Source: Tubulanus polymorphus (taxonomy: Eukaryota > Nemertea > Palaeonemertea > Tubulaniformes > Tubulanidae). Taken from it: a stretch of DNA of 64,000 nucleotides. The position numbers and the translations under genes were made by a program. Below the pieces are notes generated by a model. The model did not search any database, was not told the origin of the DNA, and saw nothing but the letters and a program-made list of their open reading frames with translations. Each line of letters starts with the position of its first letter. The stretch's first letter is position 1. The stretch is taken from positions 1,352,485-1,416,484 of the forward strand of contig NC_134027.1 of NCBI RefSeq assembly GCF_964204645.1. Reading direction: 5' to 3'. Positions 22,515 to 25,657 of this stretch are shown in pieces.

Positions 22515-25500
22515 TTAACCTTCTTTCTCTAATTCAGCTTCGATGTCTTTTGTCATGCTCTGAAATGAACGATGAAACAAACATTTCAACCAATTTTTGA
22601 TCAATGAAAAATAAAGAGAGGAATAATAGAGATATAAATCATATCGTACCAGCGGGTCGGTAGTCGGACCGTAACGTTTCACCGGAATTCCCGTCCTACT
22701 GATTAGAAACTTGGAGAAGTTCCATTTCAGTTTGCTGCAAGTAAAAACTAACCGTAAGGAGACAAAAACGTAAAATTATTAGAATTGAACTATTTGCATT
22801 GTTTCGTTCCAACAGTTTGTAAAAGATGATTGATTAATTGATTTTATTTTCATAGAATATAATTACATATAATTATAATTTCTCTTACAAAATATTGCAC
22901 TGAACTATTAAGGACTTGTCCAGAGTCTGAACGCTGTAACTCTGTACATAGTGGATGAGCTGTGAGAATTGAAATGTACAAGCACATTTTATTTGACTTA
23001 CTTCCCGAGAGTTCCTTTCAATTTGTTTTGTAAAAACTTGAATAAAGGCAACGCGTCATTTCCATTAACATCGACTTTATGGAATAAATCGTATTGTGCG
23101 CCGTGCTTTTCAGCAAAAGCCTTGATCTCTGCATCAGTTCCTGGTTCCTAAAATACACAACAACTATATCAAATTCATAATTAATTTCGCAAACCTTTAA
23201 CCCCACGTTTCAGGTCGGATCTAGAGGCATGATTGGAAGATCTTACCAAATTTCTTTTAAAAAAAAAAGATACATTAATCACAAAGATCATTGTGGCAGC
23301 GGAAATCCTTTGGCACAAAAAATACCCTTTTCCAAAAACATGGCACCCGTATTTGTGACATTGTCTGCCTTATGAATCGATGAAATGGGCACTCAGAATT
23401 TTGAGGATTTGTCTTAGTCTCACAGAACTTGATTCATGCCAGTTTACCCAGATTTTACAGCAATTTCCTATACAAACCTGGCCACCGAATTGGTTACACG
23501 GGAACGCTAGAATTCGAAGTCCCTTCTCTGAGTATTTGGCGTGCAGTTCACTCAGTTGGGTGTAATTCTTTTCGGTTAAACCTCATTTAGACGCGACATT
23601 CACGACAACTACGACGAAACCTCTGAAAATACAATACAACATTTCATACTAGATGAATGTAACACACTTTAATCCACAATTCACAATGTTTCCGTTGTTA
23701 ACTATCACCATTAGGTGAGATCACTTGAAATTCTATAGTGGGACTCGTTTAATTCCATACTAATTACCAACCCAACAGCCAGCAGTAGCCCAAGTGTCTG
23801 AGGGGTTTGATTTTTTCATGAAAGTGGAATTTAAAATGGGCGTTGTATATTTTCTATCGGAGGTCGTAGAGTGCTCTAAATAATCTAATTATCAGATGTT
23901 AAGATGAGGTGACCGTGCGTGAGTTAGGCATCAGGTTTACTGCAATAATTATGATTTTGGAGATATCTGGGGTTTCTCTATAACATTTCACTTGTTACGC
24001 ACTTGTATTTTTCTAAAGAAACTCCTTCTCCGTCGATATCTTTAGCGCTGAATTGGTAAATCGTCTCAGCATGTTTCCAAGAATCGCTGGCCGCCTGGAA
24101 AAAATGAAAATAATTATCATCTAATTGCTTTAACGCATCATAGCGTGATCAACATCGAGCGAATCAAAGAAGCTCCCACCTGCACTGTTTCGGGCCACAT
24201 CCAAGAATAAATAGCTGAAAACATGTTTGACAAATCTTCGTCCCAATCCATTTAACTTAAACACTTGTTATTTATTCCACATGTTAGCACCAGTCAGTTG
24301 ATAAGACTTATCATCTTATCGATATAGACAACTTAATTCTTATCTCTAGGTCGCTGATAGCAGAGTCTTTCAAAACTACGAAGTTTCAAAGTTGAACAGT
24401 TAGAAACAAAGAGTTAAATTGAATCAATAACCAGCGAAACTGAATCCAGTTAAACCAAGTTAGCATTTTTACCCAATTGTTCTTAAACCGAACTTATTTC
24501 GACAAGTCTGAGAAAAACAGCTCAGTGGTGATGAGCAGAGTCCGGAGCACGCATTCATCAGAGAAAAATGGGCAGTACACTGTATATAAATATCTGTGTG
24601 GATCCAGTTCCTGCGCGGTTATGAGTTTAAACGGAATGAAATCCATTCGTAGAACAACTGAAAAATGGCCGATTTCATCCATGAACTGACATCAGTGAAA
24701 GATGAGAAATTTGAAATAATTAAAACTGAAATCCACTATAAAGCAAACTACAATTACATGTATTGACTCACTGTACAGTCAGAACCATGTTAATACAATC
24801 AAAACAGGTGCTTCACTTATTACAATATATTCATATTTCGAAAATTTAGTTGAAGCAAAATATCATAACACGTAAGATTTCTTATGCAGCGCTTGGAGTG
24901 AATTAATATCAATCAATCTACGACCAATAAAATATTTATTCTGGATGTCATTAGATAGAGAAGGGGACAAACAGTGCAGATTCTCTGAGACTAGAAACTA
25001 ATTATTTGCTGTGATATTGGACATGTCTCTTCCATTGGTTCAGGATGACAAAAACAAACATGAATCGACAAAGAACCTCATTATTCAAAAAATTATATTA
25101 ATTGAATACATCAAATAAGCCTAAGACCAATAGCAGCCTATTTGTAGTACAGCAGTCAACATAGTTTCTAGATTTTCATTGCAAGATTTTACCATAAAAA
25201 ACCATGTGTTCATTCAGCCGTAGTTTGATATTTCAAACATCTGCCGAAGCAGCTGTTACTTAAAAAAAGTAATCATTGACATTAGGATCAATATAATTGA
25301 TTCGTCGCTACCTAATATATGAAGAAATTAAATCAATTTCAGAGTTCAACTTTTTGTCAATTCAATCCTGAAACTCAACTGGACCCTGGAAACTAAACCT
25401 TTGGACCGGAAAACCTTATTTCTACCATTGAAAAGGCCGCCATTTTGTTTCTAGGATCTACTACCACCACAGCTCGCCCGACCCACCCCTCTCCCTGGTT

Positions 25501-25657
25501 GCAGTCACTCGAATAAATGAATTTCACCTACCATTTGGGCGAATGTGCGACAAAACCCGTATCCGAGAACAGGTGATGATCCGTTACTGATGATACCAGC
25601 AGACAGCGGCACAAATCGGGCGAATTTGGTAAAGTATTTAGCAACTGAGAAGAACAT
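22515..25657 (-). CDS. GPX4: phospholipid hydroperoxide glutathione peroxidase, selenoprotein (GPX4-type)
   Basis: Minus-strand exons: 25657-25532 (long first exon) or 24200-24180 (short alternative), then 24094-24003, 23622-23478, 23147-23002, 22734-22650 and 22559-22515. The long form is 212 aa, the short form 177 aa. All junctions are GT-AG and in phase. UGA at 23585-23583 falls exactly at the catalytic position in [18 protein letters not shown] (residue 86, long form). The other tetrad residues are present: Gln in [12 protein letters not shown] and Trp-Asn in KLKWNFSKF. There is no subunit-interface loop, as in monomeric GPX4, which reduces lipid hydroperoxides in membranes. The long first exon encodes [20 protein letters not shown], a basic, amphipathic, mitochondrial-type leader; the short one encodes only MWPETVQ. 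The in-frame UGA hides the gene from ordinary ORF calling. A SECIS lies in the 3' UTR. Confidence 0.93.
23583..23585 (-). other. UGA selenocysteine codon
   Basis: In-frame TGA within GCG-TCT-AAA-TGA-GGT-TTA-ACC, aligned with the catalytic Sec of GPX4. Sequence similarity continues unbroken on both sides, so it is a recoded codon and not a stop. Confidence 0.93.
24180..24200 (-). other. alternative short first coding exon of GPX4 (cytosolic form)
   Basis: ATGTGGCCCGAAACAGTGCAG-less-one reading gives MWPETVQ, followed by GTGGGA at the donor and in phase 0 with the exon at 24094. It is preceded by a CAG acceptor-like site at 24217-24215, so it may be entered from an upstream non-coding exon or start at an internal promoter. 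Confidence 0.65.
25532..25657 (-). other. alternative long first coding exon of GPX4 (mitochondrial form)
   Basis: 42 codons ending CAA-ATG followed by GTAGGT, in phase 0 with the exon at 24094. Rich in Phe, Lys, Arg and Ser, no acidic residue: consistent with a mitochondrial targeting sequence. Confidence 0.75.

Follow-up and report, generated by a model that had tools for sequence, protein, structure and literature searches.

A GPX4 selenoenzyme gene of Tubulanus polymorphus with two in-frame ATGs in its first exon

The window analyzed here, a stretch of 64,000 nucleotides from the genome of Tubulanus polymorphus, carries on its minus strand a GPX4/PHGPx gene, the features of which are collected in Table 1. 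Once joined, its exons provide 213 codons including the TAA stop, in a frame that is open apart from a single TGA. The introns begin with GT and end with AG in five cases out of five, have phases 0, 2, 0, 2 and 0, and show donor scores of 7.97, 5.77, 5.66, 8.67 and 5.99, computed from general donor frequencies. Exon 1 (25657-25532) joins the acceptor at 24094 in phase 0, as an earlier note on this DNA had described.

Table 1. Features of the GPX4 locus, in window coordinates
Feature	Position	Strand	Remarks
GPX4/PHGPx gene	25657-22515	-	complete, six exons
Possible core promoter TATATAA	25747..25753	-	starts 96 bases upstream of first ATG; consensus match only
Exon 1	25532..25657	-	42 codons, MTS-like leader; phase 0, donor ATG/GTAGGT, score 7.97
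Last codon of exon 1, proposed cytosolic start (M-AASDSW...)	25532..25534	-	alignment to GPX4 chains begins at next residue
Candidate alternative first exon	24180..24251	-	24 residues from 24251, seven from 24200; unlikely to be a real exon
Exon 2	24003..24094	-	acceptor at 24094; ends in phase 2 inside KYK/GF
Exon 3, with catalytic codon	23478..23622	-	PF00255 match containing one TGA
Sec codon TGA (codon 86)	23583..23585	-	in frame, sole internal stop
Exon 4	23002..23147	-	
Exon 5	22650..22734	-	
Exon 6	22515..22559	-	stop TAA at 22517-22515
AATAAA, possible proximal poly(A) signal	22432..22437	-	starts 78 bases after stop, before SECIS
SECIS-like element, presumed 3' UTR	21966..22029	-	Rfam RF00031, 3' of stop

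With C substituted for Sec, the product matches the Pfam family GSHPx (PF00255) at an E-value of 9.4e-43 (144.7 bits, cut-off 27), and its best matches among solved structures are phospholipid hydroperoxide glutathione peroxidase or GPX4 chains (E 2e-63), the top ones of which we take to be human. The same search returned chains of GPX8 at 8.1e-35, GPX7 at 1.5e-31, GPX1 at 2.9e-27, GPX2 at 9.8e-25 and GPX3 at 2.7e-23; judged by these E-values, the predicted product is closer to GPX4 than to GPX1, GPX2, GPX3, GPX7 or GPX8. The in-frame TGA that the earlier note had placed at the catalytic position is indeed found there (23585-23583), aligned with the catalytic site of the GPX4 chains, in which C stands for Sec. 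The intact GPX4 sequence reported around it is confirmed as well, and the family and structure matches of the joined frame place the gene clearly beyond chance. We regard the locus as an ordinary animal gene for the selenoenzyme GPX4.

Downstream of the stop codon, an element matches the whole of the RF00031 model with 30.9 bits (E 0.0036), a score below the cut-off set by the gathering score of 35. It folds with a z-score of -3.45, two of 200 shuffled sequences folding equally well, and after splicing it would follow the Sec codon by 866 nt, assuming an intron-free 3' UTR. This SECIS-like element falls outside the interval covered by the earlier note (22515..25657) and was missed there. In addition, at least two tRNA-Sec loci are present in the genome according to both ARAGORN and Rfam (81.6 and 81.1 bits), both having been located with a general tRNA-Sec pattern. 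Given these tRNA-Sec genes, the reading of TGA as selenocysteine is well supported, and the proposal of a UGA-recoded GPX4 gains support from the family match, the SECIS-like element and the tRNA-Sec genes alike. The SECIS-like element may not be part of every GPX4 message, since the AATAAA of Table 1 and a second hexamer, ATTAAA at 22100, both precede it and neither hexamer occurs between the element and position 20800. Use of the AATAAA at 22437 would remove the SECIS from the transcript and turn UGA into a stop codon.

The 42-residue leader encoded by exon 1 contains four Lys or Arg residues and no Asp or Glu, giving a net charge of +4 that agrees with its earlier description as basic. Across its first 30 residues, the highest helical moment of any 18-residue segment is 0.49, a value reached by 2.3% of 5000 shuffles, and near its end lies RTF-A, which we take to be a putative arginine-containing cleavage motif. 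The 24-residue peptide of the candidate exon in intron 1 has a helical moment of 0.365, similarly rare among shuffles (3.5%), so that charge (+4 versus -5), and not amphipathicity alone, distinguishes the leader. With these properties, the leader resembles a mitochondrial targeting sequence. Exon 1 holds exactly two ATGs, one as its first codon (25657-25655) and one as its last (25534-25532), at offsets 0 and 123 of its 126 bases. The first has a weak context, with T at both -3 and +4, and the last, which the earlier note had overlooked, has C rather than a purine at -3 and acquires a G at +4 after splicing.

This arrangement can be set beside the mammalian gene, which, according to PMC4510835, has seven exons, with two in-frame starts (5'AUG and 3'AUG) around the mitochondrial leader in exon E1a, and an alternative first exon, E1b, that provides the nuclear form with its nuclear targeting sequence. 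The statement that mammals make the mitochondrial and cytosolic forms within one first exon by alternative starts is therefore right according to that source. In its tables, a human primer located in E1a has ATG as its last three bases, E2 starts with TGC, and the human E1b-E2 junction primer, read as its reverse complement, terminates in TGCGCGTCCC (PMC4510835). These primers imply a human E1a-E2 junction of ATG/TGC at a phase-0 intron, compared with ATG/GCG in the same phase here; the second AUG would thus stand at the very end of the first exon in both genes, as observed here and as deduced from primers for human. The second intron falls within KYK/GF here and within KYR/GF in human, by our own reading of the E2-E3 junction primers in PMC4510835. 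The two genes share Sec encoded by UGA with a SECIS, a leader in the first exon and a second in-frame AUG in that exon, and they differ in that the gene described here has six coding exons instead of seven exons, a leader of 42 residues and no recognized nuclear-type exon. In an ungapped alignment, the terminal Met of exon 1 is one residue off the cytosolic Met of human GPX4, which presumably begins MCASRDDW, and homology of the start codons is for this reason not exact.

We consider it very probable that mitochondrial and cytosolic GPX4 both arise from a single first exon holding two AUGs in frame, with UGA read as Sec by means of the SECIS. Translation from the first AUG would yield a precursor whose mitochondrial leader can be cleaved off, and translation from the last codon of exon 1 would yield the cytosolic enzyme. 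The second AUG could be reached by leaky scanning past the first or through a transcript beginning downstream of it, and the SECIS in the 3' region would allow UGA to be read as Sec. In this scheme we infer import of the leader, use of the second AUG and the absence of a working first exon in intron 1. A single first exon with two starts would suffice for both forms, and an additional one would not be needed for the cytosolic form, since exon 1 already ends in ATG. The gene can be read with the layout of mammalian E1a, a leader followed by a second ATG that is the last codon before a phase-0 intron, and in an invertebrate, to which the set of GPX genes in this genome points, such a single-exon, two-start solution would be old and not specific to mammals. 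The earlier proposal that the gene structure represents a solution different from that of mammals is accordingly not supported, exon 1 having a terminal ATG near the mammalian cytosolic start and no ATG between its two ends.

The main competing explanation concerns the candidate within intron 1, which the earlier note had presented as a second upstream exon encoding only seven residues, so that separate first exons would serve the mitochondrial and cytosolic forms. The splice arrangement described for 24200-24180 is present in the sequence, which reads ATG...CAG/GTGGGA and joins the acceptor at 24094 in phase 0. The open frame before the donor is longer than reported, comprising 24 residues from an ATG at 24251 that directly follows an in-frame TAA. 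After this opening ATG come two more in frame, one at 24224 with A at -3 and one at 24200 with T at both -3 and +4. A seven-residue N-terminus would require a transcript starting past the first two of the three, or initiation that skips both; the need to start at the third, in that context, speaks against the seven-residue version. A real alternative first exon, consisting of 24251-24180 or part of it and spliced to 24094, would provide a GPX4 that is not mitochondrial and whose N-terminus is acidic or very short. Consistent with such an exon, the phase-0 frame ends in a strong donor (CAG/GTGGGA at 24180) with a score of 7.99, above four of the five real donors, which range from 5.66 to 8.67; a AATAAATA stretch begins 25 bases upstream of 24251; the A at -3 gives ATG 24224 a better context at that position than either ATG of exon 1; and mammals possess E1b as an alternative first exon according to PMC4510835. 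The 231-base region around the candidate also matches only itself in a genome search from which simple repeats and highly frequent words are omitted, a result on which we rejected membership of a dispersed repeat.

Candidates of equal quality are nevertheless common. Among 88 segments of intron-1 length, drawn from both strands of the window with genic stretches and intron 1 included and candidates of at least two codons counted, 13 contain an in-frame ATG followed by a phase-0 donor with a score of 7.99 or more, and 44 contain one with a donor score of at least 5.66, the value of the weakest real donor. The higher threshold is likewise reached in 20.8% of 2000 introns simulated with a first-order Markov model. 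Because 13 of the 88 segments and 20.8% of the simulations are equal or better, the candidate is not beyond chance. The seven-residue first exon as proposed was rejected on this ground and on the length of the open frame, and the idea of separate first exons for the two forms gives way to an exon 1 that ends in ATG. With a possible cytosolic start already present in exon 1, an extra first exon is probably superfluous and a less likely reading than two starts. Alternative splicing of the intron-1 stretch into a non-mitochondrial enzyme thus has a slender chance of being correct, the stretch 24251-24180 is very unlikely to be a real exon, and its more specific interpretation as a lineage-specific first exon with its own promoter, producing a cytosolic GPX4 with an acidic N-terminus whose compartment would be set by promoter and not by start codon, is highly unlikely. 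A genuine exon in intron 1 would offer a second route for assigning this enzyme, which is key to the defense against lipid peroxidation, to its compartment. Placing an alternative first exon behind the main one would not be new in any case, E1b being known in mammals from PMC4510835; E1b, which comes after the main first exon and before exon 2, embodies the same gene-structure idea as the candidate.

It is also highly unlikely that the gene makes a mitochondrial form only, with a leader that is always translated and exon-1 ATGs that are not alternative. The C at -3 of the second AUG favors this possibility, against which stand the weak context of the first AUG, the mammalian precedent for two starts in PMC4510835 and the finding of just one GPX4-type locus, by tblastn with the GPX4 protein, among the genome's PF00255 matches at E 0.001. 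These matches come from an exon-by-exon search, so that counts are lower bounds; all 10 candidates were scored and nine are listed, two of them exons of the GPX4 gene, two belonging to one gene on contig C1, one on C2 and four on C4. A paralogous GPX4 serving another compartment was rejected, the other loci being GPX7/8-like (C2), divergent GPX1/3-like (C1) and GPX1/3-type (C4), with class names that are our own reading of tblastn alignments and not of a tree. Searching the paralog loci for the leader with tblastn gave chance-level matches only (E 3.4 in L010 and E 2.6 in L014), and Rfam, run on all five of these loci, L012, L013 and L014 included, listed nothing at E 0.5 or better, and hence no SECIS.

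The weakest reading, in which the intron-1 exon provides a nuclear-type isoform, shares with mammalian E1b a location behind the main first exon and ahead of exon 2 (to judge from the names I1a and I1b that the tables of PMC4510835 give to introns), but it is barely credible, because the putative 24-residue peptide, with a net charge of -5 and neither Lys nor Arg, is unlike a nuclear targeting sequence such as E1b carries in that source.

The gene described here can also be compared with GPX4 genes of other invertebrates. In PMC2679728, introns are reported to be conserved between platyhelminth and vertebrate PHGPx genes, and the platyhelminth Sec-type enzymes resemble the present one in having Sec, a SECIS and, in some cases, N-terminal extensions read as possible targeting leaders. 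According to the abstract of the same paper, Sec- and GSH-dependent PHGPx occurs in platyhelminths and deuterostomes only, while PMC7824116 lists a Sec-type GPX4 in scallops. The scallop set, with a single Sec-type GPX4, a single GPX7 and several genes of GPX1/3 type, has a copy-number pattern similar to that of this genome. Among the titles and abstract openings of the literature searched, none reports separate first exons for the GPX4 of an invertebrate, which is weak evidence of absence; the phrase "alternative first exon" also occurs in PMC8228037.

Several further observations were made at the paralog loci and in the window. A GPX1/3-like gene at L011:4511-5349 has NIAVGDRSA where GPX4 has NVASKUGLT; its catalytic Sec or Cys is apparently replaced, and it may possibly encode an inactive peroxidase. 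The four GPX1/3-type matches in L012, L013 and L014 (G000:C4:8420821-8438200) are arranged in tandem within about 17 kb. Just upstream of the likely GPX4 promoter lies a 160-base palindromic element (window positions 25876-26035), whose 46-base arms are 78% complementary. Look-alikes up to 91% identical are found on seven contigs, its own included, and at least 79 matches were obtained, counting both orientations and the element itself (40 scored of 490 candidates); in view of the similar stretches on seven contigs, the element looks like a MITE. Elsewhere, the window contains an uninterrupted BTBD17-like frame with BTB, BACK and TRAF domains on the minus strand (17322-18743), a stretch of roughly 1.4 kb that resembles a minisatellite and is open in several frames on both strands, as seen by eye in the list of open reading frames (42063-43600), and, on the plus strand, a seven-helix receptor of the secretin family (59422-61968).
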